Origin: Catellatospora bangladeshensis
Lineage (GTDB): Bacteria; Actinomycetota; Actinomycetes; Mycobacteriales; Micromonosporaceae
Length of the DNA: 64,000 nucleotides
Direction: 5' to 3'
Assembly (NCBI RefSeq): GCF_016862575.1
Contig: NZ_BONF01000030.1
Location: 62,001 to 126,000 of the forward strand
Below the pieces are notes generated by a model, which saw only the letters and a program-made list of their open reading frames with translations, was not told the origin of the DNA and made no database searches. Position numbers and translations under genes: made by a program. Shown piece after piece: positions 39,134 through 55,968 of this stretch. How positions within the stretch are numbered: the first letter of the stretch is position 1; each line of letters starts with the position of its first letter.

Positions 39134-40861
39134 TCACTTCGGCGTCGGGACCCGGAAGCGCTTGCCGAAGACCGTCGGGGCCAGCGCGTGCTTGAGCTCC
39201 TCGCCGAACTCGAACTCGCCCTTGTCGAACCGCTTCTTCATGAACAGGGTCAGGCCCTCGTAGGTGAGCTGCCCGATGTCGGCCGGGGCCTTCTTCTTGG
39301 CCCAGCGCAGCGTCTTGAGCACGCCGAAGAGCGACGCGTCGGTCCACTGGTTGTCCGGGTCCTCCAGGCCGAACGCGGGCGGCACGAAGTCCGCCGTCCG
39401 CAGCCGGCGCAGCAGCTCGTCCGCGGCGTCCTCGGCGCCGATGTCGCCGCGCTGGGCCGACTGCATGACCTCGTTGACGTCGCGCAGCAGCTGCAGGGCG
39501 TTCTCGTAGGGCTGGCCCTTGGCCACGACCTTGCCGCGCCACCAGGGGCTCTCCAGCGGCTTGAGCACCGACTCGTCGCGGGAGTCGACGAACTTGGCGT
39601 ACGCCCGGTTGATCTCGAAGGTGGCGATGATCTGGCCGAGTGACCAGATGCGGAACCACGCGTCCCAGAGCTTGAAGTTGCCGAAGGAGATGTACGCGTT
39701 CGCGCACAGGTCGTCGTTGAAGTCGAGCAGACCCTGCTCCAGGTCCTGCATGTGCTGGAAGCGCTCGGTCGACCAGTCGCCGTCCTTGATCGCGGACAGG
39801 ATCCGGTGGACCAGCGCGTTCATCGTCTCCATGGTGTTGGACAGGCCCCGCGAGAACAGCGGGTCGATGAAGCCGGCCGCGTGCGAGGTCAGGCACCACC
39901 GGTAGCCCACGGTCTGCCGCGAGGAGTACTGCAGCCGGTCGGTGCGGGTCCAGTCGCGGACCGCCTTGGCGTTGGCGAACTGCGGCGCGATGTCCGGGTA
40001 CTGCGCGATGAAGCGGCGGAACTCCTCCTCCGGGGTGCAGTCCGGCTTCGGGTGCTGCCGCGGGTCCAGCTGCAGGCCCACGCTGTACAGCGGGTTCGTC
40101 GCGCGGTGGTGGTTGTCGAAGGCGATGCCCCACATCCAGCCGCCGGGGAAGATGTGGTGCAGGGTGCCCTCGTGCCACGGGCTCGGGTGGTGGTAGCGGC
40201 TCTTGGGCGCCAGCTCGTCGTACGGCTTCACGCCGACCATGTGCGTGAACAGGGTGCGGCTGTGGTGGCGGAACCGGGTCGGGTCCTCGCGCAGGCCGAA
40301 CTTCTCGGCGAGCAGCGAGCGGTAGCCGGAGGCGTCGACCACGTACTGCGCGCGCACCTGCTTGCCGGTGTGGAACGTGGCGGTGACGCCGTCCTCGTCG
40401 AAGTCGAAGTCGGTCACCCGCGTCTGCTGCACGACCTTGGTGCCGTACTTCACGGCGACCAGGACCATCCAGTTGTCGACGTCCTGCCGGAAGAAGTGGT
40501 TCTCCGTGTGCGTGATCTTCGGGATGGGGAACATGTGGGTCTCGCGCGGGACCTGTCGCTCACCCGGCCGGTGGTAGACGAAGCCGAAGTTGCGCTTGAC
40601 CCCGACCTGGGTGGTGACCTTCGAGTAGGCGCCCTCGAAGGTGGCCAGGTACTTGATCTCCGGCACGTTGTAGCGCTCGGCGACGAGGCGCATCATCATC
40701 GACGTCGCCGGGATGGTGGACTCGCCGATCGACATGCGCGGGTGCGAGCCGGCGTCGACCAGCAGCACCCGTGCGCCGTTGCGGGACAGGCAGGCCGACG
40801 TCATCGATCCGGCCAGACCCGAGCCGACGACGATCACGTCGTATTCGTCCTTCGGATCCAT
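39134..40861 (-). CDS. flavin-dependent halogenase-like protein, first copy
   Basis: 575 aa, first gene of the operon. VIVVGSGLAGSMTSACL (FAD), GESTIP near 45, GVKRNFGFVYHRPGE with the candidate catalytic Lys near 87, VVDASGYRSLL near 168, GWMWGIAFDNH near 237 and AAGFIDPLFSRGLSN near 330 all match its sister at 37440. The usual GDAAGF reads SHAAGF here and AHAAAF in the sister, a sub-family trait. ATG at 40861 with AAAGGACC upstream; a longer reading upstream lacks domain content. Divergent from the adenylation gene, so co-regulated with the main operon. Confidence 0.83.
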   Translation of the reverse strand: MDPKDEYDVIVVGSGLAGSMTSACLSRNGARVLLVDAGSHPRMSIGESTIPATSMMMRLVAERYNVPEIKYLATFEGAYSKVTTQVGVKRNFGFVYHRPGERQVPRETHMFPIPKITHTENHFFRQDVDNWMVLVAVKYGTKVVQQTRVTDFDFDEDGVTATFHTGKQVRAQYVVDASGYRSLLAEKFGLREDPTRFRHHSRTLFTHMVGVKPYDELAPKSRYHHPSPWHEGTLHHIFPGGWMWGIAFDNHHRATNPLYSVGLQLDPRQHPKPDCTPEEEFRRFIAQYPDIAPQFANAKAVRDWTRTDRLQYSSRQTVGYRWCLTSHAAGFIDPLFSRGLSNTMETMNALVHRILSAIKDGDWSTERFQHMQDLEQGLLDFNDDLCANAYISFGNFKLWDAWFRIWSLGQIIATFEINRAYAKFVDSRDESVLKPLESPWWRGKVVAKGQPYENALQLLRDVNEVMQSAQRGDIGAEDAADELLRRLRTADFVPPAFGLEDPDNQWTDASLFGVLKTLRWAKKKAPADIGQLTYEGLTLFMKKRFDKGEFEFGEELKHALAPTVFGKRFRVPTPK

Positions 40862-41121: not shown

Positions 41122-42708
41122 ATGCTGGTACAACGCAACAAGGGCCGGGCTGCCCGCGGGCACCAGCCGCCACCCGCGGTCCCCGATCTCATCGAGACGT
41201 TCCAGCGGGTCGCGGCCCGTTACCCGGACCGGGTGGCGATCGCCTCACCGGATGGGGAACTGTCCTACGCCGAGCTGAGCCGTCGCGCCAACGCGGTCGC
41301 CGAACTGCTCGGCCCGTACCCGGGCGTGGTCTGCGTGCTGGCCACGCACGCGCCGGCCACCATGGTCGGCCTGCTGGGGACGCTGCTCGCCGGGGGCACC
41401 TACTGCCCGCTCGACCCGGGCTTCCCGGTCGCACGCCAGCTGGAGATGCTCGCCGCCGCACGGTCGAGCGCCGTGCTGGTCACCGCGGACGGGCAGCTCG
41501 CGCCGCCGGTGCCGCCGGGCGTCGAGGTGCTCGACATCCGGCACGAGCCGTCGGCCGCGGAGCCGCCGCGCCTGCCGGACGGCCCCGAGGAGCCCGCCTA
41601 CCTGCTGTTCACCTCCGGCTCCACCGGGATGCCGAAGCCGGTGACCACGCCGCGCGCCGCGATCACCGCCACGGTGACGTCGCTGCGCAACCTCTTCGAC
41701 CTCTCCCCGGAGGACCGGGTGCTCCAGTTCGCCTCGCTGAACTGGGACACCGCCTTCGAGGAGATCCTGCCCGCGCTGACCACCGGCGCCACGCTGGTGT
41801 TCGACCCCGACGCGCACTCCGGCTCCTTCCACCGCTTCCTGCGGATGCTGGAGCGGCAGCGGATCAGCGTCGTCGACCTGCCCACGGCGTACTGGCACGA
41901 GCTGGTCCTGCACCTGTCCGAGGACGAGGCGGCGCTGCCGGCGTCGGTGCGCACCGTGATCATCGGGGGCGAGGCGGTGAGCCCGGCCCGGCTGGCCGAC
42001 TGGAAGGGCCTGCGCACCGGGCACATCCGCCTGGTCAACACCTACGGCTGCACCGAGACCACGCTGATCACGCACGCCATCGACCTGCACGGGCCGCTCG
42101 CCGCGCCCGCCGACCCGCAGGACCCGGCCGTGCCCATCGGCCACCGGCTCCCGCACGTCGTCGAGCACGTCACCGACGAGGGCGAGCTGCTCATCGGCGG
42201 GCCCGCCATCGCCACCGGCTACCGGGGCATGGCGGACGCGACGCTGGTGAAGTTCGTCCGGCTCGACCTCGGCCCGGCCTCCGGCCGCTTCTTCCGCACC
42301 GGCGACCGGGTCCGCGCCCGCGACGACGGCGCGCTGATCCACGCCGGGCGCCTGGACGACGAGGTCAAGGTGCGCGGCATCCGGGTCAACCCGACCGAGG
42401 TCGAGGCGCAGCTGACCAGGTGCCCCGGCGTCGCCGCCGCGGCCGTGCTGGGCGTGACCACGCTCGGCCGGACCACCCTGGTCGCCTACATCGTCCCGCG
42501 TACGGAGACCGCAGACAGCGCGGAGTTCGTCGCGGGGGTGCGCGCCGACCTGGCCGCGCGGGTGCCCGGACACCTGGTGCCGGGCCGCATCATCGCCGTC
42601 CCCGAGCTCGTCCACACGGCCAGCGGCAAGGTCGACCGCCGCAGCTCGCACAGCCGCTACACGACCGCACTCGCCAGCACGACCGCGACCGACCTCGGAG
42701 GTCACTGA
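41122..42708 (+). CDS. stand-alone NRPS-type adenylation enzyme
   Basis: 528 aa; activates an amino acid as adenylate and loads the PCP encoded next. Core motifs: LLFTSGSTGMPKPV (A3), NTYGCTETTL (A5), ATGYRG (A6), FFRTGDRVR (A7), GRLDDEVKVRGIRVNPTEVE (A8) and SGKVDRR (A10, catalytic Lys). By-eye pocket residues (GrsA 235/236/239/278/299/301/322/330/331) read D,T,E,D,I,G,T,L,I. Two acidic residues suggest a basic side chain such as Lys or Orn, not Pro. Start at 41122 has GGAGG 5 nt upstream. Confidence 0.9.
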   Translation: MLVQRNKGRAARGHQPPPAVPDLIETFQRVAARYPDRVAIASPDGELSYAELSRRANAVAELLGPYPGVVCVLATHAPATMVGLLGTLLAGGTYCPLDPGFPVARQLEMLAAARSSAVLVTADGQLAPPVPPGVEVLDIRHEPSAAEPPRLPDGPEEPAYLLFTSGSTGMPKPVTTPRAAITATVTSLRNLFDLSPEDRVLQFASLNWDTAFEEILPALTTGATLVFDPDAHSGSFHRFLRMLERQRISVVDLPTAYWHELVLHLSEDEAALPASVRTVIIGGEAVSPARLADWKGLRTGHIRLVNTYGCTETTLITHAIDLHGPLAAPADPQDPAVPIGHRLPHVVEHVTDEGELLIGGPAIATGYRGMADATLVKFVRLDLGPASGRFFRTGDRVRARDDGALIHAGRLDDEVKVRGIRVNPTEVEAQLTRCPGVAAAAVLGVTTLGRTTLVAYIVPRTETADSAEFVAGVRADLAARVPGHLVPGRIIAVPELVHTASGKVDRRSSHSRYTTALASTTATDLGGH

Positions 42709-42929
42709 TGAACGCGCACGACATCGTCGACATCTTCCGCCGGATCCTGGAGACCAACGACATCGACGTCGACTCGGACTTCTTCCAGCTGGGTGGCGAC
42801 TCCCTGACCGCGACGCGCATCCTGAGCGCCGTGGCCCGGCGTACGGGCACCGAGCTGACGTTCGACGACTTCATGGCCGCCCCGACGCCGGGCAGCCTGT
42901 CCGAGAAGCTCGCGGTCGTGGCGGTATGA
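42708..42929 (+). CDS. peptidyl carrier protein
   Basis: 73 aa discrete PCP. The phosphopantetheine attachment site is LGGDSLTATRIL, with Ser near residue 30. Its ATG overlaps the stop of the adenylation gene (TGATG) and its end overlaps the amine-oxidase start (ATGA), so the three are made together. It carries the activated amino acid for on-carrier oxidation or halogenation. Confidence 0.93.
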   Translation: MNAHDIVDIFRRILETNDIDVDSDFFQLGGDSLTATRILSAVARRTGTELTFDDFMAAPTPGSLSEKLAVVAV

Positions 42930-44275
42930 ACGTCATCGTCGTCGGCGCCGGCCTGGCCGGCCTGACCGCGGCCACCGGCCTGTCCGCCGCCGGCGTGGAC
43001 GTCACCGTCCTCGAGGCGCGGGACCGGGTCGGCGGGCGCACCCACGGCATCGAGGTCGCACCCGGCCGGTGGGTCGACGCGGGGGCCGCCTACCTGGGCG
43101 TACGCCACACCGAGCTGATCTCGATGCTGACCGGTTTGGGCCTGCGCACCATGTCGACCGACATGGTGGGGGCGAGCCGGTTCGACATCGGCGGCGGGCT
43201 GCGCACCGTGGACGGCCGCTTCCCGCCCCTGAACGCCATCGCCCTGGGCGGCATGTTCGACGCCCTGGACGAGGTGACCCGGCTGGTCGACGTGGACGAG
43301 CCGTGGCGCACCCCCGGTGCGGACGTGCTCGACCGGCTCACCGTCGACAAGTGGGCCGCCGAGCAGATCGACCACCCGGACGCGGCGACCTTCCTGCCGC
43401 TGTTCCTCGGCGAGATGATGGCCGCCGACCCGGCCGCCGTCTCGGTCCTGCACATGGCCTTCTACCTGCGTTCCGGCGGCGGCCTGCGCTACCTGAACGC
43501 GTTCGAGGGCGGCGCGCAGGAGTCCCGCGTCGACGGCGGCGCGCACCAGATCAGCGAGCGGCTGGCCGCCCAGCTGCCGCACCCGGTCCGGCTCAACGAC
43601 CCGGTCACCGCGATCCACCACGACGACAACGGCGTCGTCGTGCACTCTGCGAGCGGCGTACACCGCGCCGACGCCGTGATCGTGGCGATCCCGCCGGAGC
43701 TGGCCGACCGGATCGAGTTCACCCCGCGCCTGCCGCACACCCGGACCAGCTCGCACACCGCGCGCGGCTCGGCCCTGAAGATCCAGCTCGTCTACCCCAC
43801 CCCCGCGTGGCGCGAGCACGGGCTGTCCGGCTGGTCCATCAGCGCGGACGGGCCGCTGCTGTCCACCGTGGACGACACGCCCGCCGGGGGCTCCCCCGGC
43901 GTGCTCACCGGCTTCGTCACCGGCGCCGAGGCGCACCGCTTCTCCGCCCTCTCCGCGGACGAGCAGCGCGCTGCGGCGATCGCGCAGGCGAAGCACGTCT
44001 TCCCCTTCCTGGGGGAGCCGGTCGAGTGCCACATCACCGACTGGCTGAACGACCCGTACAGCGTCGGCTGCTACGCCGCGCTGTTCGGCCCCGGCGACTG
44101 GACGCGGCACGGGCCCCGGCTCACCACCGCCTCCGGACGCGTGCACTGGGCCGGCACCGAGACGAGCACCGAGTACTTCGGGCTCATGGAAGGCGCCATC
44201 CGCTCCGGACAGCGGGTGGTGTCCGAGGTCCTCACGGCCCACGACTCACGGTCACTCGTCTCCGAGCCGACCTGA
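42926..44275 (+). CDS. FAD-dependent amine oxidase (MAO/phytoene-desaturase superfamily)
   Basis: 449 aa. Starts directly with VIVVGAGLAGLTAATGLSAAG (FAD) and EARDRVGGRTHG, the amine-oxidase signature. It continues with RYLNAFEGGAQESRVDGGAHQI (family substrate-domain motif) and ends with VHWAGTETSTEYFGLMEGAIRSG, the flavin-binding C-terminal motif. It is the size of monoamine and amino-acid oxidases. Placed right after the PCP gene, it may oxidise the carrier-bound aminoacyl group, a job done by acyl-CoA-dehydrogenase-like enzymes in pyrrole pathways. The substrate is inferred from position only. Confidence 0.88.
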   Translation: MNVIVVGAGLAGLTAATGLSAAGVDVTVLEARDRVGGRTHGIEVAPGRWVDAGAAYLGVRHTELISMLTGLGLRTMSTDMVGASRFDIGGGLRTVDGRFPPLNAIALGGMFDALDEVTRLVDVDEPWRTPGADVLDRLTVDKWAAEQIDHPDAATFLPLFLGEMMAADPAAVSVLHMAFYLRSGGGLRYLNAFEGGAQESRVDGGAHQISERLAAQLPHPVRLNDPVTAIHHDDNGVVVHSASGVHRADAVIVAIPPELADRIEFTPRLPHTRTSSHTARGSALKIQLVYPTPAWREHGLSGWSISADGPLLSTVDDTPAGGSPGVLTGFVTGAEAHRFSALSADEQRAAAIAQAKHVFPFLGEPVECHITDWLNDPYSVGCYAALFGPGDWTRHGPRLTTASGRVHWAGTETSTEYFGLMEGAIRSGQRVVSEVLTAHDSRSLVSEPT

Positions 44276-44329
44276 GCCAGCTCCATCCGCACCGAGTAGC
44301 ACACACCGCCAACAGAAGGAGTGATCACG

Positions 44330-44590
44330 ATGATCGCTGAGGTCCGCAAGACCGTCATCGACGGCCTGGCCCAGATGAACTACGACGTGAGCGACGTGAC
44401 CGGCGACACGGTGCTGGGCCCGGAGGGCCTGGACCTGGAGTCCCTGGCGATCGCCGAGCTGGCGATCCTGCTGGAGGACACCTACGGCTCGAAGTTCACC
44501 GAGGAGGAGATGTCGGGTTTCACCGGCCTCACCATCGACCAGATCGCGGGCGAGGTCACGGCCCGCACCGCCGTGGGCGCGAGCGCCTGA
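44330..44590 (+). CDS. acyl carrier protein
   Basis: 86 aa. The attachment motif reads GLDLESLAIAEL, so the usual DSL is ESL with the Ser kept (near residue 39). Acidic helix II (ELAILLEDTYG) is typical of ACPs that dock a ketosynthase. I chose the ATG at 44330 since AAGGAG lies about 9 nt upstream; a GTG at 44321 is too close to it. Partner of the KS that follows at 44673. Confidence 0.9.
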   Translation: MIAEVRKTVIDGLAQMNYDVSDVTGDTVLGPEGLDLESLAIAELAILLEDTYGSKFTEEEMSGFTGLTIDQIAGEVTARTAVGASA

Positions 44591-44615
44591 CCGGCAATTC
44601 CCTCCCCAAGTGCAC

Positions 44616-44642
44616 GGCCCGGCCGGCCGGACCGGCCGGGCC
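44616..44642 (+). other. perfect 11-bp hairpin between ACP and KS genes
   Basis: GGCCCGGCCGG and CCGGCCGGGCC with a 5-nt loop, no T-run. It may partly end transcription or stabilise the upstream mRNA, raising ACP over KS levels. Confidence 0.55.
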
Positions 44643-44672
44643 GCCCTCAAGTGACGAGGAGACCTGAGAGCG

Positions 44673-45926
44673 ATGCCCGCTTCAGCCGCACGAACCGCAA
44701 CGATCACCGGCATGGGCGTGTTCACGCCCGTCGGCCGCGACCTCGACCAGTTCTTCGACGCGCTGTGCGTCGGCCGCTCGGGCATCGTCAACCCGCCTGA
44801 GGGGCACCCGACCTTCGGCGCCGTCGACGCCGCCGCCATCGCCCCGCCCATCGAGGCGATCGAGGTGCTGCCGCCGCTGGCCGCCCGCGTCGTCGACCGC
44901 TTCCTGCTGATGGCCCTGGCCGCGGCCGACGACGCCATCCGCGACGCCAAGATCGAGATCGGCACCGACGTCGACCCGTACCGGGTGGGCGTGGTCGTGT
45001 CGACCGGCGTCGGCGGCATGTCCACCTACGAGCAGCAGTCCTTCGGCTGGCAGGCGCGCGGCGGCAACGCGGTGAGCCCGCTGCTCTACCCCGGCTTCCT
45101 GCCCAACATGGCCTCCGCCCGGATCGGTATCAAGTACGGCATCCGCGGCTTCAGCTCCAGCATCTCCACCGCCTGCGCCGCCGGCGCGCACGCCATCGCC
45201 GAGGCGCTGCGCCTCATCCGCGACGACGAGTGCGACGTGGTGATCTGCGGCGGGTCCGAGGCGCCGTTCGGCGGCACCGGCGTGGCCGCGTTCGGCAACG
45301 CGCGGGCGCTCGCCGCCGGCTGGGCCGACCCGGCCCACGCCAGCCGGCCCTTCGACACGCGCCGCAACGGCTTCGTGCTCGGCGAGGGCGCGGGCATCGT
45401 GGTGGTGGAGAGCGCCGAGTTCGCCCAGGCGCGTGGCGCGCGCCGCTACGCCGACCTGATCGGCTGGGGCGCCACCACCGACGCGTACCACCCGACCATG
45501 CCGCGGCCGGACGGCGAGGCCGCCGCCCAGGCCATGCGCAAGGCGCTGCGCAGCGCGGGCCTCGCGCCCGGCGACGTGAAGTACGTCAACGCGCACGGCA
45601 CCTCGACGAAGCTCGGCGACCAGGTCGAGTCGACGGCGATCCGCGCGGCCTTCGGCGACTCGCCCGCGGTCAGCTCGACCAAGGGCGTCACCGGGCACCT
45701 GCTCGGCGCCGCCGGGGCGATCGAATCGATCGCCACCGTGCTGGCCGTCGAGCGGGGCATGATGCCCGCCACCGCCAACCTCGAGGAACCCGACCCACTG
45801 TGCGATGTGGACCACGTCGTGAAGACTCGGATCGGACCGGTCGGCGCCGCCCTGTCCAACTCGTTCGCCTTCGGTGGCCACAACGTGAGCCTCGTCTTCG
45901 CCACCGCCGGCGCCACCGCCGGCTGA
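44673..45926 (+). CDS. beta-ketoacyl-ACP synthase, KAS II (FabF) type
   Basis: 417 aa single-domain ketosynthase. Cys in SISTACAAGAHA near residue 165, His in NAHGTSTKLGD near 307 and His in TGHLLGAAGAIE near 343 form the intact Cys-His-His site; the C-terminal NSFAFGGHN is present. No chain-length-factor partner is adjacent, so it is not a classical type II aromatic PKS pair. It should extend an ACP- or PCP-bound starter by at least one malonyl unit; no dedicated ketoreductase or acyltransferase is in the operon. GAGGAG upstream of the ATG. Confidence 0.93.
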   Translation: MPASAARTATITGMGVFTPVGRDLDQFFDALCVGRSGIVNPPEGHPTFGAVDAAAIAPPIEAIEVLPPLAARVVDRFLLMALAAADDAIRDAKIEIGTDVDPYRVGVVVSTGVGGMSTYEQQSFGWQARGGNAVSPLLYPGFLPNMASARIGIKYGIRGFSSSISTACAAGAHAIAEALRLIRDDECDVVICGGSEAPFGGTGVAAFGNARALAAGWADPAHASRPFDTRRNGFVLGEGAGIVVVESAEFAQARGARRYADLIGWGATTDAYHPTMPRPDGEAAAQAMRKALRSAGLAPGDVKYVNAHGTSTKLGDQVESTAIRAAFGDSPAVSSTKGVTGHLLGAAGAIESIATVLAVERGMMPATANLEEPDPLCDVDHVVKTRIGPVGAALSNSFAFGGHNVSLVFATAGATAG

Positions 45927-46892: not shown

Positions 46893-49190
46893 GTGTCCAC
46901 CGCACCCACGCCCGACTGGCTGCTGGAGAACGGCCACGTGCTGATCACCGGCGCCACGGGCTTCTTCGGGCAGGCGCTGCTGGAGCGCCTGCTCGCCGAC
47001 CATCCGACGACCCGGGTGACCGTCCTCATCCGGGGCCGCGGCGCCACCTCGGCCGCGAGCCGCCTGGCGGGCCTCACCCGCAAGCCGGTGTTCAGCGCGC
47101 TGCGCAAGCGCATCGGCACCCCCGGCATCGAGGAGCTGCTGCGCACCCGCGTCAGCGTGCTCGACGGCGACCTGACCTCGCCCCACCTGCGCCTGCCCGA
47201 CGACCTGACCGCGGTGCTGCACTGCGCCGGGTCGGTCTCCTTCGACCCGCCCATCGACGAGGCGTTCCGGATCAACGTGACCGGCGTGGTGAACCTCTAC
47301 GACGCCGTGTCCCGCCTGCCGGTGCAGCCGCACGTGGTGCACGTGTCCACGGCGTACGTCAACGGCGGCCGGTTCGGCCTGGTGCCGGAGGCGCCGCTGG
47401 AGCACGACGTCGACTGGCGGGCCGAGCTGGCCGCCGCGAACGCCGCACGCGACGAGGTGGAGCGCGAGTCACGCCGCCCCGAGGTGCTGGCCCGCCTGCT
47501 CAGCGAGGGCCGGGCCGCCGACGGCAAGGCCGGGCCGACCTGGGCCGCCGCCGCCGCGGAGCGCTCCCGGCTGGAGCTGGTCGACAAGCGCCTGGTCGAG
47601 GCGGGTCGGCAGCGGGCCAAGAGCCTGGGCTGGACCGACGTCTACACCTTCACCAAGGCGCTGGCCGAGCGCGTCGCCGAGGAGTACGCCCGTACCAAGG
47701 GCATGCGCATCTCGGTGTTCCGCCCCACCATCGTGCAGAGCGCGCTGCACCACCCGTTCCCGGGCTGGTTCGAGTCGTACAAGATGCTCGACCCGATCAT
47801 CCTGGCCTACGGCCGCGGCATCCTGCCCTTCCCGCCCGGCGTGCCGGACGCGCCGGTCGACGTCATCCCGATCGACTTCGTGGTCAACGCGATGCTCGCG
47901 GTCACCGCCAACCCGGTCGCGCCGGGCGAGACGGCGTACTTCCACGCCGGCTCGGGCTTCCGCAACCCGCTGAGCGCCCGCGACATGGATGAGCACCTGC
48001 GCGACTACTTCGGCCGCCACCCCATGCCGGACAAGGACAAGGGGCACATCACCGTGCCGTCCTTCCGGTTCGTGGGCACCGGCAAGCTCGACGGGCTGCT
48101 GCGCCACGGCGAGCGGCTGGTCTCGGCCGCGGAGCGCACGGTGATGCGGCTGCCGTCGTCGCCGCGCACCCGCGGCTGGATGACCAAGGTGCACACCGAG
48201 AAGACCCGGGTCGAGCAGCTGCGCAAGCTGTCCGATCTGTACAGCGTGTACAGCGCGGTCGAGACGATCTACACCGACGACCGGACCCTGGCCCTGCACC
48301 GGTCCATGCCGCCGGAGCACGCGGAGCGCTTCGGCTTCGACACCTCGGTGATCGACTGGACGCACTACATCCGCGAGGTGCACTGCCCCGCGATCACCGC
48401 GCTGCAGCGGCAGGCGGGCAACCGCCGCCCGCGCGCCGCCGGGCCGAAACCGCTGGTCCCCGGCGAGGGCATCGCGGCGGTGTTCGACCTGGAAGGCACG
48501 ATCGTCAAGTCCAACGTCATCGAGACGTACCTGTGGGCGCGGCTGGTGGACCGGGAGCGCGCGCAGTGGCCCGGCGAGCTGATCTCGCTGGCCGGGGCCA
48601 TGGTCGGCTACGCCAAGACCGACCGGCGCAGCCGCAGCGACTTCATCCGCGAGTTCATGCGCCGCTACGCCGGGGCGTCCGAGGCGGCCATGCGCCGCCT
48701 GGTCGACGAGCGGATGGGCGAGGCGCTGCTGCTGCGCGCGATGCCGGAGGCGGTCCGCCGGATCCGGGCGCACCGCGCGGCCGGCCACCGCACCATCCTG
48801 ATCACCGGCACCGCGTCGCTGTTCCTGACGCCGCTGGCCCCGCTGTTCGACGAGATCCAGGCCAGCCGGCTGCACGTGGGCGCCGACGGCGTGATCTCCG
48901 GCTACCTGGACACCCCGCCGCTGGTCGGCGAGGCGCGCGCGGCCTGGCTGCGCCGCTACGCCGGGCAGCACGGGCTGGACCTGTCCCGCTCGTACGCCTA
49001 CGGCGACAGCTACTCCGACCGCCCGCTGCTGGAGCTGGTCGGCAACCCGACCCCGGTCAACCCCGACCCGCGCCTGTACCGCCACGCGAAGAAGCAGCAC
49101 TGGCACATCGAGCAGTGGGGCGCGAACACGCACGGGGCGCTGGAGACGCTGGTGGAAACCGTCAACCGAGTCCCCGGTGGTGTCCGATGA
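46893..49190 (+). CDS. thioester reductase / HAD-IB phosphatase-like fusion
   Basis: 765 aa. The N-terminal extended SDR (about 1-440) of the male-sterility/thioester-reductase type has VLITGATGFFGQALLERLL near 12 for NAD(P)H and YTFTK near 250 as the Tyr-Lys catalytic pair. The C-terminal HAD domain (about 530-740) has VFDLEGTIVKSN as motif I, ILITGTASLF as motif II and GDSYSDRPLL as motif IV. Motif I is D-x-E rather than D-x-D, losing the usual acid/base Asp. The reductase would release a carrier-bound acyl chain as aldehyde or alcohol. GTG start, GGGAGG upstream. Confidence 0.87.
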   Translation: MSTAPTPDWLLENGHVLITGATGFFGQALLERLLADHPTTRVTVLIRGRGATSAASRLAGLTRKPVFSALRKRIGTPGIEELLRTRVSVLDGDLTSPHLRLPDDLTAVLHCAGSVSFDPPIDEAFRINVTGVVNLYDAVSRLPVQPHVVHVSTAYVNGGRFGLVPEAPLEHDVDWRAELAAANAARDEVERESRRPEVLARLLSEGRAADGKAGPTWAAAAAERSRLELVDKRLVEAGRQRAKSLGWTDVYTFTKALAERVAEEYARTKGMRISVFRPTIVQSALHHPFPGWFESYKMLDPIILAYGRGILPFPPGVPDAPVDVIPIDFVVNAMLAVTANPVAPGETAYFHAGSGFRNPLSARDMDEHLRDYFGRHPMPDKDKGHITVPSFRFVGTGKLDGLLRHGERLVSAAERTVMRLPSSPRTRGWMTKVHTEKTRVEQLRKLSDLYSVYSAVETIYTDDRTLALHRSMPPEHAERFGFDTSVIDWTHYIREVHCPAITALQRQAGNRRPRAAGPKPLVPGEGIAAVFDLEGTIVKSNVIETYLWARLVDRERAQWPGELISLAGAMVGYAKTDRRSRSDFIREFMRRYAGASEAAMRRLVDERMGEALLLRAMPEAVRRIRAHRAAGHRTILITGTASLFLTPLAPLFDEIQASRLHVGADGVISGYLDTPPLVGEARAAWLRRYAGQHGLDLSRSYAYGDSYSDRPLLELVGNPTPVNPDPRLYRHAKKQHWHIEQWGANTHGALETLVETVNRVPGGVR

Positions 49191-50410
49191 TGCTCGCCCT
49201 GCAGTACAAGAACTCGCCGGTCAAGTACCTGACCGCGCGCGGCGTCACCAGCACCCGGATCGGCTCCCGGTTCACCAGCGCGGTCGCCGGCAACCTGGCG
49301 CCGCTGCAGCTCACCCAGCTGCCGGTGCCGGACCTGCCGGGGCGGGGCTGGGTGCGGCTGCGCCCGCTGCTGTCCGGCATCTGCGGCTCCGACCTGGCCA
49401 TGCTCACCGGCCGGTCCTCGCCGTACCTGACGCCGCTGGTGTCCACGCCGTTCGTGCCCGGCCACGAGGTGGTCGCGGTGACCCTGGACGACGCGCCGGA
49501 CCTGCCCAAGGGCAGCCGGGTGGTGGTCGATCCGGTGCTGTCCTGCGCGGCGCGCGGGCTGCGGCTGTGCCCGGCGTGCGCCGAGGGACGGCAGTCCCGC
49601 TGCATCGCGGTCACCTCGGGCGGGCTCGCGCCCGGCCTGCAGACCGGCTACTGCGGGGACACCGGCGGCGGCTGGGGCAAGCAGATGGTGGCCCACCGCA
49701 GCCAGCTGCACGTCGTGCCCGAGGGCGTGCGCGACGAGCTGGCCGTGCTGGCCGAGCCGCTGGCCTGCGCGATCCACGCGGTGCGCCGGGTGGCGCTGCC
49801 CGCCGGGGCGACCGTGGTGGTGATCGGCGCGGGCACCGTCGGCCTGCTCACCATCCTGGCGCTGCGCGAGTACACCGAGGTGGGCGGCATCCACGTGGTG
49901 GCCAAGCACCGGCACCAGCAGGTGCGGGCCCGGCAGCTCGGCGCGACCGAGGTGATCGAGCCCGCCCGCGCGGCACGGGCCGTGCGCCGGCTCACCGGCG
50001 GCAGCCTGGAGAGCCCGGTGATGGGCGCGGAGTACCTGCTCGGCGGCGCGGACGTGACGTTCGAGTGCACGGGCGGGGGCGGCCTGGACACCGCGCTGCG
50101 GCTGACCCGGGCCGGGGGCACGGTGGTGCTCTCCGGGATGCCGTCGACCGGGGTGGACCTGACCCCGCTCTGGTTCCGCGAGCTGCACCTGGTCGGGGCG
50201 TACGCGACCGACTCCGGCGGGGTGCCCGAGGCCGACGGCGGCCGGCAGGGCGACTTCGACCGGGCGCTCGACCTGGTCGGCCGGGCTCCGCTGGACGGCT
50301 TCGTGGACGCGCGCTACCCCCTGACCCGCTGGCGGGAGGCGGTCGGCCACGCGGCCGACGCCGGACGCCTGGGCACCGTCAAGGTCGCCTTCGACCTGGC
50401 CGAGATCTGA
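49187..50410 (+). CDS. zinc-dependent alcohol dehydrogenase (MDR superfamily)
   Basis: 407 aa. GICGSD (catalytic-zinc Cys) near 67, GHEVVAV near 90, a Cys cluster (CAARGLRLCPACAEGRQSRC) around 120 for the structural zinc, and VVVIGAGTVGLLTILAL near 207 for NAD(P). An N-terminal extension of about 20 residues is present. It starts inside the stop of the reductase gene (ATGA). It likely interconverts the aldehyde or ketone from the reductase and its alcohol. Confidence 0.9.
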   Translation: MMLALQYKNSPVKYLTARGVTSTRIGSRFTSAVAGNLAPLQLTQLPVPDLPGRGWVRLRPLLSGICGSDLAMLTGRSSPYLTPLVSTPFVPGHEVVAVTLDDAPDLPKGSRVVVDPVLSCAARGLRLCPACAEGRQSRCIAVTSGGLAPGLQTGYCGDTGGGWGKQMVAHRSQLHVVPEGVRDELAVLAEPLACAIHAVRRVALPAGATVVVIGAGTVGLLTILALREYTEVGGIHVVAKHRHQQVRARQLGATEVIEPARAARAVRRLTGGSLESPVMGAEYLLGGADVTFECTGGGGLDTALRLTRAGGTVVLSGMPSTGVDLTPLWFRELHLVGAYATDSGGVPEADGGRQGDFDRALDLVGRAPLDGFVDARYPLTRWREAVGHAADAGRLGTVKVAFDLAEI

Positions 50411-50420
50411 GGAGACCGAG

Positions 50421-51998
50421 ATGAGCAGACCCGGATTCGTACTCGAAGTGGACGAGCGCACCCCCTCTCTCCTCGTGCACCAGGGCGAGGGCTTCCGGCT
50501 GGAGAAGTTCCCGCTGGGCACGCGCGTGATCTACCCGCCCGACTCGCTGCCGGGCATCCGCGACCTGGACGCGGCCATCCGGCACGCGCTGCTGAACCCG
50601 CACGGCACCCCGCCGCTGCCGGAGCTGCTGCGCCCGGACATGAGGCTGACCATCGTGTTCGACGACATCTCGCTGCCGCTGCCGCAGATGCGCCCGCCGG
50701 ACATCCGCGGCCGCATCATCGAGCACGTGCTGGAGCTCGCGGCGGCGGCCGGGGTCGACGACGTCGAGCTGCTCGCGGCCAACGCACTGCACCGGCGGAT
50801 GACCCCGGCCGAGCTGAAGCGGGCCGTCGGCGACCGGGTGTTCCGTGCCTTCTTCCCCAAGCACCTGCGCAACCACGACGCCGAGGACCCGGACGGCATG
50901 ACCCACCTGGGCCTGACCCGGCACGGCGAGGACGTCGAGATCAACAAGCGGGCGGCCGAGAGCGACCTGCTGGTGTACGTCAACATCACGCTCACCGCGA
51001 TGAGCGGCGGGCCGAAGTCGGTGGCGGTCGGGCTGGGCTCGTACAAGAGCCTGAAGCACCACCACAACGTGCACACGCTGCGGCACTCGACGTCGTTCAA
51101 CGACCCGCCGAACTCGGCGATGCACCACTCCTACCACCGCATGGCGAAGGTGGTGGAGGACCACGTCAAGGTCTTCACCATCGAGACCACGCTGAACGGC
51201 GACAACTTCCCCGAGGCGACGAAGTTCCTGCAGAAGCGCGAGTGGGAGTGGAACCTGCGCGACCAGGCGTCGCTGCTGGCCTTCAAGAAGGCCAACGAGA
51301 TGACGCCGCTGAAACTGCGCCGCGAGATCTGGCAGCGCAACGACGCGCCGTTCGGGGTGACCGGCATCCACGCCGGCGACCCGAAGGAGGTGCACCCGCT
51401 GACCCTGGCCAACGTGCACCGGCAGCAGCTGACCGAGATCGACGGGCAGGCCGACATCGGGGTGTGGGGGCTGCCGTTCCTGTGCCCGTACAACGTGAAC
51501 TCGATCATGAACCCGATCCTGGTGATGAGCCTGGGCCTGGGTTACTTCTTCAACCTGTACCGCAACAAGCCGATCGTGCGGCAGGGCGGGGTGGCGATCT
51601 TCTACCACCCGATGCAGAACGACTTCCACCAGATCCACCACCCGAGCTACATCGACTTCTTCGAGGAGGTGCTGACCCAGACCACGGACCAGCAGGCCAT
51701 CGAGTCGAAGTTCGAGAAGCAGTTCGCCGAGGACCCCTGGTACACCCACCTCTACCGCAACAGCTACGCCTACCACGGCGTGCACCCGCTCTACATGTGG
51801 TACTGGGGCGCGCACGCCATGGAGCACCTGGGCGACGTCATCTTCGTCGGCGCGGACCGCAAGGCCGCCGCGCGGATGGGCTTCCGCAGCGCGTCCACGC
51901 TGGCCGACGCGCTGGAGATGGCCAAGGACACGGTGGGCGGCAGCCCGTCGATCACCTACCAGCACACGCCGCCGGCCACGCTGGCCGACGTGCGGTGA
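50421..51998 (+). CDS. LarA-like nickel-pincer enzyme (variant)
   Basis: 525 aa, longer than the usual ~425 aa LarA. FDDISLPLPQ near residue 81 stands for the family's D-x-T-R-P. ANALHRRMTPAEL gives His124 (LarA H108). SGGPK gives Lys199 (LarA K184, cofactor tether) and KHHHN gives His215 (LarA H200, Ni ligand at matching +16 spacing). The position of catalytic H174 holds Asn/Ile (VNITLTA). So cofactor binding looks kept while the two-His racemase chemistry is changed. LarB, LarC and LarE genes for the cofactor lie 2-4 kb away. Substrate unknown, perhaps a hydroxyacyl intermediate. Confidence 0.83.
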   Translation: MSRPGFVLEVDERTPSLLVHQGEGFRLEKFPLGTRVIYPPDSLPGIRDLDAAIRHALLNPHGTPPLPELLRPDMRLTIVFDDISLPLPQMRPPDIRGRIIEHVLELAAAAGVDDVELLAANALHRRMTPAELKRAVGDRVFRAFFPKHLRNHDAEDPDGMTHLGLTRHGEDVEINKRAAESDLLVYVNITLTAMSGGPKSVAVGLGSYKSLKHHHNVHTLRHSTSFNDPPNSAMHHSYHRMAKVVEDHVKVFTIETTLNGDNFPEATKFLQKREWEWNLRDQASLLAFKKANEMTPLKLRREIWQRNDAPFGVTGIHAGDPKEVHPLTLANVHRQQLTEIDGQADIGVWGLPFLCPYNVNSIMNPILVMSLGLGYFFNLYRNKPIVRQGGVAIFYHPMQNDFHQIHHPSYIDFFEEVLTQTTDQQAIESKFEKQFAEDPWYTHLYRNSYAYHGVHPLYMWYWGAHAMEHLGDVIFVGADRKAAARMGFRSASTLADALEMAKDTVGGSPSITYQHTPPATLADVR

Positions 51999-52008
51999 GG
52001 GGGAGACG

Positions 52009-52926
52009 ATGAGCCTCAAGAGCGACTTCCGGGAGCTGGTGTCCGGGCGGGACTGGCGGGGGCGCTCGCGTACGCCGCGCTCGGCCGTGCAGTATCGCGA
52101 GCCCAGCCCCGGGCTGACCTTCCCGACGGCGTGGACGCGCAGCAAGCCCGCCCGCACCGTGCGGCGCGGCCTGCACAGCGGCGTGCTCAAGCCGCTGGTG
52201 TGGGCGCAGACCCGGCCCACCGTCGAGGGCACCGAGTACCTCGACGGGCTGACCGGCCCGGTGATCTTCGCGGCCAACCACGCCAGCCACCTGGACGCCC
52301 CGCTGATCCTCAACACGCTGCCCAAGCACTTCGCGGGCCGGGTCGCGGTCGGCGCCGCCGCCGACTACTTCTTCACCGCCCGCTGGCGTGCGGTGCTCAC
52401 CACGCTGGCGTTCAACGCGTTCCCGGTGGAGCGCTTCGGCGGCTCGTCGAAGCAGAAGCAGGCCAGCCTCGCCCCGGAGCTGCTCGACCGGGGCTGGAGC
52501 CTGCTGCTGTTCCCGGAGGCGAGCCGGTCGCAGGACGGCTGGATGTCGCCGTTCCGCATCGGCGCGGCGTTCCTGGCCTGGTCGCGCAAGGTGCCGGTGG
52601 TGCCGGTGGCCATGCGCGGCACGTACGCGGCGATGCCGCGCGGCGAGTGGGCGATCACCCGCGGCCGCCCGTCGCTGGTCGTCCGCTACGGCCGCCCGAT
52701 GTTGCCGCACGAGGGCGAGCCGGCCCGGGACTTCAACGTCCGCGTCGCCGACGCCGTCCACCGGCTCTGGGCCGAGGAGGACCTGGGCTGGTACCGCGCG
52801 CTGCGCGAATCCCACGCCGGGCGCATCGAACGCCCCGCCGGCCCCCAGGGCGCCCCCTGGCGCCGCCTCTGGGAGGCCACCCGCCCGCTCCGCTCCTCCT
52901 CCCGCCCGAACCGCATCTGGTCCTGA
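52009..52926 (+). CDS. PlsC-like acyltransferase (1-acylglycerol-3-phosphate type)
   Basis: 305 aa. NHASHLDAP near residue 88 is the H-x4-D catalytic motif I and LLFPEASRS near 167 the glycerophosphate-binding motif (usually FPEGTRS). VPVVPVAMRG follows. There are no clear membrane helices beyond a hydrophobic N-terminal stretch. It would esterify an alcohol with an acyl group, possibly the product of the reductase/dehydrogenase step instead of a phospholipid precursor. Last gene of the ten-gene operon, 10 nt after the LarA-like gene. Confidence 0.85.
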   Translation: MSLKSDFRELVSGRDWRGRSRTPRSAVQYREPSPGLTFPTAWTRSKPARTVRRGLHSGVLKPLVWAQTRPTVEGTEYLDGLTGPVIFAANHASHLDAPLILNTLPKHFAGRVAVGAAADYFFTARWRAVLTTLAFNAFPVERFGGSSKQKQASLAPELLDRGWSLLLFPEASRSQDGWMSPFRIGAAFLAWSRKVPVVPVAMRGTYAAMPRGEWAITRGRPSLVVRYGRPMLPHEGEPARDFNVRVADAVHRLWAEEDLGWYRALRESHAGRIERPAGPQGAPWRRLWEATRPLRSSSRPNRIWS

Positions 52927-53154: not shown

Positions 53155-53988
53155 TCAGGCGGCGACCGGGAGTTCGTTGAGGGAGCCGGAGCGGAAGGGG
53201 GTGACCTCGACGGGGAGGTCGCCGAAGCCGGATTCGCGGACCAGGTTGCGGACCTCGACGTCGCGCTCGATCCAGAAGAGGGCGTCCGCGTCGACCTCCA
53301 CCCGCACGGACTCGCCGAGGTCGCGTACCCGCAGGTCGCGGTTGCCCAGGCCGCTCAGGTGGCGGCGCAGCACGGCCTCGGCCCGCTCGACCCGGGCCAG
53401 CCGGGCGGGAGTGATGGTGATGCCGTACGCGATCCGGCTGGACAGGCACGCCGCGGCCGGCTTGTCCCAGGTGCGCAGGCCCCAGTGGCGGGCTACGGCG
53501 CGCACCTCGTCCTTGGTGATGCCGAGGTCGGCCAGCGGGGTGCGCGCGCCGCGCTCGCGGGCGGCGGCGATGCCCGGGCGGAACCGGTCGCCCAGGTCGG
53601 TGGCGTTGGTGCCGGTGGCGATCGTGGTGTAACCCTCGGCGGCCGCCGTCTCCAGGGCCGCCTCCAGCAGCGTGCTCTTGCAGAAGTAGCAGCGCTGTCT
53701 GCCGTTGGCCGCGTACTCCGGCAGGTCGAGCTCGCGGGTCGCCGGGGTGTGGTGGACCACGCCCAGCTCGGCGGCGATCCGGCGGATCTCGACCAGCTCG
53801 TCGCCGGGCAGTGACGCCGAGACGGCGGTGAGCAGCCCGACGCGGTCCGGGCCGAGGGCCCGCACGGCCGCCGCGGCGACGACCGTCGAGTCGATGCCGC
53901 CGGAGGCCGCGACCAGGGTCCGCCCGTATTCGGCGATCTCCTGGACGAGCAGGTAGGCGAGTTCCTCCTCGGTGCGAATTCCGTTCAT
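53155..53988 (-). CDS. larE: ATP-dependent sacrificial sulfur transferase LarE (nickel-pincer cofactor synthesis)
   Basis: 277 aa. PP-loop SGGIDS at 29-34 activates the substrate with ATP. RCYFCK gives Cys100 and Cys103, and ACLSSR gives Cys181, the position of the sacrificial Cys176 of the Lactobacillus enzyme. Three Cys would also suit the Fe-S-cluster type of LarE, which recycles sulfur; sequence alone cannot decide. It converts the carboxylates of the LarB product to thiocarboxylates. ATG at 53988 follows GGGAGA. Divergent from larB over 76 bp. Confidence 0.92.
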   Translation of the reverse strand: MNGIRTEEELAYLLVQEIAEYGRTLVAASGGIDSTVVAAAAVRALGPDRVGLLTAVSASLPGDELVEIRRIAAELGVVHHTPATRELDLPEYAANGRQRCYFCKSTLLEAALETAAAEGYTTIATGTNATDLGDRFRPGIAAARERGARTPLADLGITKDEVRAVARHWGLRTWDKPAAACLSSRIAYGITITPARLARVERAEAVLRRHLSGLGNRDLRVRDLGESVRVEVDADALFWIERDVEVRNLVRESGFGDLPVEVTPFRSGSLNELPVAA

Positions 53989-54029
53989 GCGAATCAGATC
54001 TCCCTTGCTGACGCATAGCCATGTATGGT

Positions 54030-54045
54030 TTGAGCATAAACTCAA
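54030..54045. promoter_or_regulatory. small palindrome in the larE-larB control region
   Basis: TTGAGCATAAACTCAA (TTGAG/CTCAA arms, 6-nt spacer) lies 20 nt before larB and 42 nt from the larE start, where it could bind a regulator of both. It is short, so chance is possible. Confidence 0.35.
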
Positions 54046-54064
54046 CAGACGAGGAAATCATCAG

Positions 54065-54733
54065 ATGAAGCTGGGTTATGCGACGCTTGACGTCGACCGC
54101 CGGGCCCGCACCGGTGACGCGGAGGTCGTCTTCGGACACGGCAAGACGCCTGAGCAGGTGGTCGGCGCGCTGCGCGGCCTGCACGCGGCCAATCCCGACG
54201 GACCGGTGCTCGCCACCCGGGTCGACGAAGCGGGTCGCGAGCACTGCCGCCGCAACCTGCCACGTGCCGTGATCGACGACATCGGACGGACGGTGGTGCT
54301 CGGCCCGCCGCGACCGGCGCGCGGCCGGGTCGCCGTGGTCAGCGCGGGCACCTGTGACCTGCCGGTGGTGCGCGAGTGCGCCACCACCATCGCCGTCTTC
54401 GGCTCCGCCGCCGACCAGATCGTCGATGTCGGGGTGGCTGGAATTCACCGCCTGTTCGACCAGCTCGACCGGATCAAGGCGGCCGACGTGGTCGTGGTCG
54501 TCGCCGGGATGGAGGCAGCGCTGCCGTCCGTGGTCGGCGGCCTGATCGGCACGCCGATCGTCGCGGTGCCGACCAGCGTCGGCTACGGCTGGCACCTGGA
54601 GGGCGTCACCGCCTGGCTGGCCATGGTGAACACCTGCGCGCCCGGGATCACCACGGTTAACGTGGACAACGGCTTCGGCGCCGGGGTGGCCGCCGCCCGG
54701 ATCGCGCGGGCGACCGCGAGGGCCGCCGGATGA
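54065..54733 (+). CDS. larB: LarB, NaAD carboxylase/hydrolase of nickel-pincer cofactor synthesis
   Basis: 222 aa, AIR-carboxylase (PurE)-like fold. The first step carboxylates the pyridinium ring of nicotinic acid adenine dinucleotide and releases AMP. Features: VFGHGKTPEQVVGAL near 22, AVVSAGTCDLPV near 87, VGVAGIHRLFDQLDRI near 125, VVVVAGMEAALPSVVGGL near 145 and PTSVGYGWHLEGVTAWLAMVNTCAPGITTVNVDNGFGAG near 170, all as in LarB. GAGGAAA precedes the ATG. Overlaps larC by 4 nt. Confidence 0.94.
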   Translation: MKLGYATLDVDRRARTGDAEVVFGHGKTPEQVVGALRGLHAANPDGPVLATRVDEAGREHCRRNLPRAVIDDIGRTVVLGPPRPARGRVAVVSAGTCDLPVVRECATTIAVFGSAADQIVDVGVAGIHRLFDQLDRIKAADVVVVVAGMEAALPSVVGGLIGTPIVAVPTSVGYGWHLEGVTAWLAMVNTCAPGITTVNVDNGFGAGVAAARIARATARAAG

Positions 54734-55968
54734 GGACACTGTGGATCGACCCGGGCCAGGGCTGCGCGGGCGACATGCTGCTCGCGGCGCTGCTGGACGC
54801 GGGCGCGTCGGTCGACGCGGTGCGCAAGGGGCTCGCCTCGCTGCGGGTGGAGCCGGTCACCGTGGACCCGGTGCAGGTGCGCCGGCACGGCCTGCGGGCG
54901 ACGTACGCCCAGGTCCAGGCGCCGGAGACGGAGACCGAGCGGCACCTGTCCGACGTGCTGGCCGTCATCGGCGGGGCCGAGCTGCCGCCCCCGGTGGCCG
55001 CCTTCGCCACCGCGGTCTTCCAGCGGCTGGGCGAGGCCGAGGCGCGGGTGCATGGCGTCGCGATCGAGCGGATCCACTTCCACGAGGTGGGCGCGCTCGA
55101 CGCGATCGCGGACATCGTGGGCTGCGGGCTGGCGTTGCACGACCTGGACCTGCTGGGCGACGGCGTGGTCCGGGTGGTCGGGCCGATCGCGCTGGGCTCG
55201 GGCACCGTACGCGCGGCGCACGGGCTGATCCCGGTGCCGGTGCCCGCGGTGCTGGAGCTGGTCGCGGCCGCGAAGGCGCCGGTGGCCGAGCACCCCGCCC
55301 GGATGGAGCTGTGCACGCCGACCGGGGCCGCCCTGCTGGCCGCCCTCGCCACCACCTGGGGTCCGCCGCCCGCGGGCACCCCGGTCGCGGTGGGCGTCGG
55401 CGCGGGCACCCGCGATCCGCAGACCCACCCCAACGTGGTCCGCATCGTGCTCGGCGACGCGGCGGAGGGGGCCGCGCAGGACGGCGGCTGGCTGGACGCG
55501 CGGCTGCACCGGGTCGACGCGACGGTCGACGACCTGGACCCCCGGGTCTGGCCCACCCTGCTGGACCACCTGCGCGCGGTGGGCGCGGCGGACGCCTGGT
55601 GCACCCCCGCGCTCGGCCACAAGGGCCGCCCGGCGCACGTGCTGAGCGTGCTCGTCGACGCCGACCGGCTGGACGCGCTGTGCCGGGCCGTCTTCGAGCA
55701 CACCACCACGCTCGGCGTGCGGGTCTCCCCGGTGGAGCGCCGCAGCCTGCGCCGCGACCAGGTGCGGGTGCGGGTGGGCGCGGCCGAGGTCGGGGTGAAG
55801 CGCGGCTTCCTGGACGGCCGGGTGGTCACCGCGCAGCCGGAGTACGACGACGTCGTCGCCGCGGCCCGCGCGAACGGGCTGCCGGTGACCCGGGTGCTGG
55901 CCGCGCTGCACGGCTTCGCGGCCGCTCAGGGCATCGACGGCCTTGACCAGGCACTGCGTCCGGAATAG
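54730..55968 (+). CDS. larC: LarC, nickel insertase of nickel-pincer cofactor synthesis
   Basis: 412 aa, one uninterrupted frame, whereas in Lactobacillus plantarum larC is read by frameshifting from two frames. WIDPGQGCAGDMLLAALLDAGA at the start, IHFHEVGALDAIADIVG near 117 (His-rich motif), LIPVPVPAVLEL near 165 and ELCTPTGAALLA near 195, with a C-terminal domain with EYDDVVAAARANGLP. It uses CTP to insert Ni into the dithio-pincer. Co-translated with larB. No nickel transporter gene is in the window. Confidence 0.94.
   Translation: MRTLWIDPGQGCAGDMLLAALLDAGASVDAVRKGLASLRVEPVTVDPVQVRRHGLRATYAQVQAPETETERHLSDVLAVIGGAELPPPVAAFATAVFQRLGEAEARVHGVAIERIHFHEVGALDAIADIVGCGLALHDLDLLGDGVVRVVGPIALGSGTVRAAHGLIPVPVPAVLELVAAAKAPVAEHPARMELCTPTGAALLAALATTWGPPPAGTPVAVGVGAGTRDPQTHPNVVRIVLGDAAEGAAQDGGWLDARLHRVDATVDDLDPRVWPTLLDHLRAVGAADAWCTPALGHKGRPAHVLSVLVDADRLDALCRAVFEHTTTLGVRVSPVERRSLRRDQVRVRVGAAEVGVKRGFLDGRVVTAQPEYDDVVAAARANGLPVTRVLAALHGFAAAQGIDGLDQALRPE

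Follow-up and report, generated by a model that had tools for sequence, protein, structure and literature searches.

A predicted nickel-pincer enzyme with altered LarA carboxylate contacts, encoded in an operon-like unit with lipid-type genes in Actinomycetota

According to our analysis, the gene at 50421..51998 (+) of the window, a stretch of 64,000 nucleotides from Catellatospora bangladeshensis, encodes a 525-aa nickel-pincer enzyme of the LarAH14 type, here called LarAH, which stands among genes for a fatty-acyl reductase, a Zn-dependent dehydrogenase, and a PlsC-type acyltransferase. The assignment draws on NF052592, Lar_N, a structure model, and a fold match. We give about even odds to the reading that LarAH is a nickel-pincer enzyme which transfers hydride at a secondary alcohol in a lipid intermediate lacking a free carboxylate.

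The reading frame opens with ATG and is genuine; in the range 41 to 60 kb its codon-position score of 191 is exceeded by that of the reductase alone (202). Its product matches the Pfam domain Lar_N with 134.5 bits and is a full-length member of the NCBIfam family NF052592 (LarAH14/15/16), where residues 6-525 align to profile positions 1-520 with 897.1 bits (cut-off, 740); the remaining listed LarA models of NCBIfam score at most 85 bits. It resembles in this the LarAH14 of Frankia, and the Frankia loci L091, L092, and L099 have the order reductase, dehydrogenase, LarAH. The family name, NPN-dependent hydroxyacid isomerase, fits less well, since Frankia LarAH14 was inactive in seven free 2-hydroxyacid assays, which used small acids (PMC7583248, Table 1). 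Unlike group 16, which is said to be without the catalytic and NPN-binding residues (PMC7583248), LarAH keeps them. The "LarAH15" of PMC11770544 is a Phytophthora gluconate epimerase and not group 15 of 2020.

There is little doubt in our prediction that LarAH depends on NPN. Both marks of an NPN enzyme, the tether lysine K199 and the Ni-ligand histidine H215, occur in 107 of 107 aligned members, and the genes for NPN synthesis are present in the same genome, at 53155-55968 of the window. They encode the sulfur insertase LarE (53155..53988, -; the longest reading frame starts from 54045), which matches TIGR00268 with 267 bits (cut-off, 150), the carboxylase LarB (54065..54733, +; longest reading frame from 53972), which matches NF033503 with 251.8 bits (cut-off, 175), and the Ni-inserting LarC (54730..55968, +), whose LarC1 and LarC2 parts match TIGR00299 (190 bits) and NF052512 (120 bits). 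Since the C. bangladeshensis genome has a single Lar_N gene, adjoining larE, larB, and larC, these presumably serve LarAH.

Upstream of LarAH, a gene at 46893..49190 (+) encodes, by Pfam and NCBIfam, a fatty-acyl reductase (NAD_binding_4 plus Sterile) fused to an HAD-IB phosphatase (FAR-HAD); its Sterile match of 32.9 bits is marginally below the cut-off of 35.4, and it matches the fatty acyl-CoA reductase 7eoz with an E value of 5e-46. It is followed at 49187..50410 (+) by a Zn-dependent medium-chain dehydrogenase (MDR) of the polyol/butanediol-dehydrogenase kind with the Zn-ligand motifs kept, and LarAH is followed at 52009..52926 (+) by a PlsC-type acyltransferase with HX4D and FPE motifs. 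FAR-HAD, MDR, LarAH, and PlsC thus form, in this order, an operon-like unit. This context, absent from an earlier note that was made from the letters of the window, points to lipids, and we consider it likely that LarAH works in a lipid pathway.

The unit was surveyed in Actinomycetota genomes, of which several lineages were positive. Among 80 named loci (the best 80 of at least 581 confirmed matches, with 63-81% identity), FAR-HAD and MDR were each found in 75 and PlsC in 76; all four genes were consecutive and on the same strand in 64, and the median gaps were -4 (71 pairs), 38 (75), and 10 (72) bases. Contig ends account for the five loci without FAR (L059, L063, L093, L102, and L109) and for the missing PlsC of L054, L057, and L111; the fourth locus without PlsC, L075, has 1.6 kb beyond LarAH. 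MDR is missing from five loci, of which L059 and L063 are cut by the contig and L083, L084, and L086 are true absences. In 26 further loci scoring above 700 bits, from other Actinomycetota, FAR was present in 24, MDR in 24, and PlsC in 19; L150 ends before FAR, and L124 is without MDR. The seven deep loci without PlsC make up family f18, six of them with plsY directly upstream of FAR. None of the 6 genomes has a second plsY above the family cut-off, so this one may be a housekeeping gene that adjoins by chance. LarAH and FAR lie apart in genome G065, and the module was not found in 14 lower-scoring relatives, where stray single matches reached at most 115 bits.

Leaving the lar genes aside, the next commonest neighbour cluster occurs in 19 of the 80 loci. 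One such cluster, c7, is a 292-aa protein beside or near the module in 19/80 loci (for example, L053:2678-3556), and this example, the one scanned, matched nothing in Pfam or NCBIfam at the thresholds applied. A link with sugar metabolism, as for LarA Sp and LarA Bw, was rejected on these counts, no cluster outside the module and the lar genes exceeding 19/80 loci; rare sugar genes are possible. The window also holds, at 41122-45926, genes for an adenylation enzyme, carrier proteins, an amine-oxidase-like flavoprotein, and a FabF-type ketosynthase (KAS). We place the KAS, ACP, and adenylation genes of this stretch (41122-45926) outside the module, given that KAS and ACP adjoin in 2/80 loci and an adenylation gene in one. 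The two loci with KAS and ACP next to the module are L040 and L041, and the adenylation enzyme of L041 is fused to a formyl-transferase domain. Farther off, two adjacent genes on the minus strand (37440-39107 and 39134-40861) encode FAD proteins of the tryptophan-halogenase type. An adenylation domain, a ketosynthase, and two carrier proteins lie beside them, and the whole may be a separate small biosynthetic cluster.

The three true absences of MDR belong to Streptomyces lavendofoliae (L083), S. altiplanensis (L084), and Streptomyces sp. DH37 (L086), where the order is larE-larB-larC-FAR-LarAH-PlsC, directly after the end of a type I PKS. The reductase half of FAR has lost TGxTGFxG and YxxxK in both L083 and L086, and the HAD motifs are retained; L084 has a broken reading, with gaps in place of the reductase motifs and only a late HAD motif visible. 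The end of the PKS in L086 comprises, by domain scan, DH, methyltransferase, ER, KR, and ACP domains, and the upstream PKS reading frames of L083 and L084 were judged by eye. A cyclopropane synthase and a P450 come after the unit in L086. LarAH in these three loci again adjoins acyl-chain synthesis, and MDR and the reductase appear dispensable for it, since the loci do without them. Counting also L124 and L075, which each miss a partner, the reductase, MDR, and PlsC steps would not always be needed.

LarAH and FAR-HAD are inherited together. With LarAH counted when over its cut-off and FAR-HAD at E values up to 1e-60, both occurred in 83 of 396 genomes of the phylum, LarAH alone in 3 (G216, G387, and G394), FAR alone in 10, five of which carry LarAH fragments, and neither in 300 (Fisher p 8e-70, a value without correction for shared ancestry). 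LarB was over its cut-off in 47 of the 49 LarAH-positive genomes examined (of 87 known), G263 and G294 being the two without, and within the 80 named loci larE, larB, and larC lie inside the locus in 43, 42, and 39 cases, with varying placement and orientation. In the genus of the window, LarAH was found in 2 of 11 genomes (G000 and G401), both with LarB over cut-off and a full-length FAR; LarB and FAR were not found in the nine LarAH-negative congeners, which gave only partial PurE-like or HAD-only matches. This distribution of the module reductase, LarAH, and larB over 2/11 genomes of the genus suggests transfer or loss. Spread by plasmids was considered and set aside after a search of a plasmid collection gave no match.

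For the active site, LarAH was numbered by profile alignment to LarA Sp (9q2u chain), and conservation was counted in 107 aligned members, 81 from the window and the named loci and 26 from the loci of other Actinomycetota. In terms of LarA Sp, H124 corresponds to H115, D82 to D73, K199 to K195 (the pincer tether), and H215 to H211 (the Ni ligand), so that the earlier note, which had recognised a LarA relative by H124, K199, and H215, had picked the right residues. H124 (50790..50792, +) is equivalent to the catalytic LarA H108, which contacts the 2-OH, and H215 (51063..51065, +) to LarA H200; each is present in 107/107. The full set of invariant residues (107/107) is D82, H124, R125, R126, N188, K199, H215, Y357, N358, R446, H452, and H455.

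The same note had pointed out that VNITLTA, at the place of the second catalytic histidine H174, contains no histidine, and the alignment bears this out, extending it to a deletion. The stretch from N188 to K199 (50982..51017, +), which comprises the H174 loop and the NPN-tether lysine, is predicted to lack four residues: LarA Sp 184-187 (GNPY, including Asn185 at the place of H174) have no equivalent in LarAH. The span measures 12 residues in 107/107 members, as against 16 in 8/8 two-His LarAs, all eight of which show the loop histidine and served as a positive control. The short loop is without histidine in 106/107 members, L118 having one at position 191. As far as aligned sequences can tell, no histidine stands at the place of H174, and the loss is a conserved family trait and not chance.

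The changes extend to the residues that hold the carboxylate in LarA. LarA Ip with bound D-lactate holds the carboxylate through Arg73, Gln295, Lys298, His107, and His173, and the 2-OH through His107 and Tyr294 (PMC11851776). In LarAH, the D-x-T-R-P motif becomes D82, I83, S84, L85 (50664..50675, +), with D72 of LarA kept and R75 replaced by L85, an alteration that had already been noticed; the position holds Leu in 86 members, Ile in 19, and Cys in 2 (n = 107). Y357, N358, V359, N360, and S361 (51489..51503, +) correspond to Y294, Q295, x, V297, and K298, the tyrosine being retained, the glutamine replaced by asparagine, and the lysine by serine, position 361 holding Ser in 102, Ala in 3, and Gly in 2 of the 107. 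Among the eight two-His control rows, the Arg75 equivalent is Arg in 8/8 and the K298 equivalent is Lys in 5, Gln in 2, and Ile in 1, so that the loss of K298 alone says little, the lysine not being universal in the controls. Judged by alignment, the carboxylate grip would be lost as a set, R75, K298, and Q295 being replaced and H174 deleted, and the site that holds the hydroxyl would be kept, H124 and Y357 being invariant; H124 (His107) normally serves both groups. This combined pattern says more than the lone missing histidine, and a substrate without a free carboxylate is our prediction, held with some confidence.

The structure model of LarAH, built on 55 sequences (pLDDT 91.4, pTM 0.91), has the LarA fold. 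Its best match is LarA Sp (9q3k; Z 39.5, rmsd 2.5 over 449), which is also top in Foldseek, followed by LarA Bw (Z 36.1), LarA Ip (31.4), and LarA Lp (5huq; 29.5). Like the nearest solved folds, the Asn-type LarA Sp (9q3k and 9q2u) and LarA Bw (9q3j), LarAH has one N-domain histidine, and it shares with LarA Sp the C-domain residues H401 and H398, retained as H455 and H452, and Y307, retained as Y357. LarA Sp and LarA Bw have Asn for H174, K76 for R75, and sugar-metabolism neighbours (PMC12611868), whereas LarAH has a deleted loop, L85 for R75, P356 for H306, a 49-residue insertion, and lipid neighbours; the mark of the Asn type, group 17 (Asn for H174), is absent from it, and it occupies a separate branch of the tree. 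With two-His LarA (5huq and 6c1w) and LarA Ip (9eia and 9eid) it has in common the fold and the equivalents of D72, H108, K184, H200, and Y294, and it differs from them in that the equivalents of H174, R75, K298, and Q295 are gone.

The insertion at residues 257-314 (51189..51362, +), aligned to LarA Sp 255-263, is the main source of the extra length remarked on before and carries an EWEW motif, of which E274 and W277 are each present in 107/107. The stretch 256-315 measures 59-61 residues in the core family; among the 14 relatives it has 52-56 residues in seven and 10-12 in seven. In a 51-row tree, which carries a long-branch warning and in which the order of the two-His rows among themselves is unsure, the 8 two-His rows are separated from the other 43 rows, LarAH among them, with 100/100 support, in line with a placement outside the ordinary racemases; the Asn type branches next after this split, the core forms a single clade (100/99), which groups at 97/94 with the other loop-deleted rows and with two rows without the NPN residues. 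The core was sampled at 25 rows; 11 of 30 loci gave no reading frame by the extraction rule, and of the 19 extracted, three wrong-frame reading frames and three duplicates were removed. The loop-deleted rows touch on two further groups. L133:9107-10702 and L134:9402-10934 represent another loop-deleted LarAH subfamily, with L133 at 527 bits, below the cut-off, and adjoin what by eye resembles a CaiB-type CoA-transferase. L142:9016-10800 and L143:8898-10562 are LarA-like proteins in which the usual NPN binding is probably not possible.

We propose that LarAH would share a pathway with the fatty-acyl reductase/HAD phosphatase, the Zn secondary-alcohol dehydrogenase, and the PlsC acyltransferase. 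NPN on K199, with H215 on the Ni, would accept hydride from the carbinol carbon, H124 would take the hydroxyl proton, and Y357 would hold the oxygen, giving a transient ketone; NPN would then return the hydride to the ketone, and the centre would be inverted if H455 protonates from the opposite side. The carbinol would most likely be inverted, or rearranged by some other hidden-redox route, with H455 of the C domain as second acid/base; between inversion and net redox, inversion has roughly an equal chance. H452 and H455 (51774..51785, +; equivalent to LarA Sp H398 and H401; 107/107) are the candidate replacement acid/base, and from its conservation H455 may be that residue; H401 of LarA Sp is among the residues near ligand density (PMC12611868). 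Candidate substrates would include long-chain 1,2-diols, 2-hydroxyacyl thioesters or esters, and acyl- or alkyl-glycerols (or their phosphates) that react at the C2-OH of the glycerol. The long-chain 1,2-diol is one candidate among several; the part of the Thermomicrobium roseum genome paper that we cite leaves open how long-chain 1,2-diols are made and is without the term "lactate racemase" (PMC2615216). Ether lipids were also considered, and no ether-lipid gene set of such a kind was found in the literature consulted, where the Ger, ElbD, and AGPS routes are described without LarA. Several observations weigh against this reading. The invariant basic residues R125, R126, R446, H452, and H455 could bind a carboxylate in another way; R75 of LarA contacts the NPN phosphate as well, and altered cofactor binding may be part of the reason for its loss; and some loci or genomes with LarAH are without FAR, MDR, PlsC, or LarB.

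The first of these observations leads to an alternative that we consider unlikely, namely, that LarAH is a racemase or epimerase of a free 2-hydroxyacid, unusual and maybe a long-chain 2-hydroxy fatty acid, with R446, H452, and H455 in place of the clamp and of the second histidine. The NCBIfam name, the invariance of these three residues, and the statement that known LarA substrates bear a carboxylic acid group (PMC11851776) speak for it, and a 2-hydroxy fatty acid would suit the lipid neighbours. However, R75 and the H174 loop are gone in 107/107, K298 has become Ser, Ala, or Gly, and the negative assays of Frankia LarAH14 go against it, although small acids were used (PMC7583248). Far less probable still is a LarAH without hydride transfer, serving to carry NPN or to support the lipid enzymes structurally. 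Several catalytic residues are lost, and the relatives L142 and L143 have neither the catalytic histidine nor the tether lysine nor the Ni histidine, as a protein retired from catalysis might; against this stand D82, H124, K199, H215, and Y357, retained in 107/107, and the co-inheritance with larB.

The earlier note had suggested one-sided chemistry, in which a single histidine allows net oxidation or reduction or, as proposed for LarA Sp and LarA Bw, a unidirectional inversion, and we give this reading a minor share of the probability. There is indeed one N-domain histidine in LarAH, a unidirectional racemase has been proposed for the Asn type, of which two structures were solved (PMC12611868), and Desguin 2020 suggested another hydride-mediated reaction for some LarAH groups without H174 and K298 (PMC7583248). 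Yet in a net redox reaction the hydride on NPN would have to be passed to a second substrate, of which there is no sign; the invariant H455 may supply the other proton, and for net redox the operon already has FAR and MDR, both apparently NAD(P)-dependent. The idea thus stands as possible, but it is not implied by the missing histidine, since the carboxylate grip, R75 and K298 included, appears to be lost together with H174 and H455 is invariant. A carrier-bound or otherwise masked hydroxyacid, also named in that note, is compatible with hydride transfer on a lipid secondary alcohol.

The missing second histidine itself is already in print (PMC12611868, PMC7583248, and NF052592), Gatreddi 2025 describing groups 14 and 15 as without H174 (PMC12611868). 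A description of the lipid operon and the combined loss of the clamp was not found in the literature consulted, of which Tables S1 and S3 of PMC7583248 may hold some of the neighbours or residues. We put forward, tentatively and at somewhat less than even odds, that LarAH represents a lipid branch of NPN enzymes whose substrates are secondary alcohols with no free carboxylate, within an undescribed Actinomycetota operon that makes a membrane or storage lipid. If this is true, the use of the nickel-pincer cofactor widens beyond carboxylic-acid substrates, the question posed by the single-histidine LarAH narrows to a short list of lipid substrates, and the module points to a lipid pathway, so far uncharacterised, in many actinobacteria.
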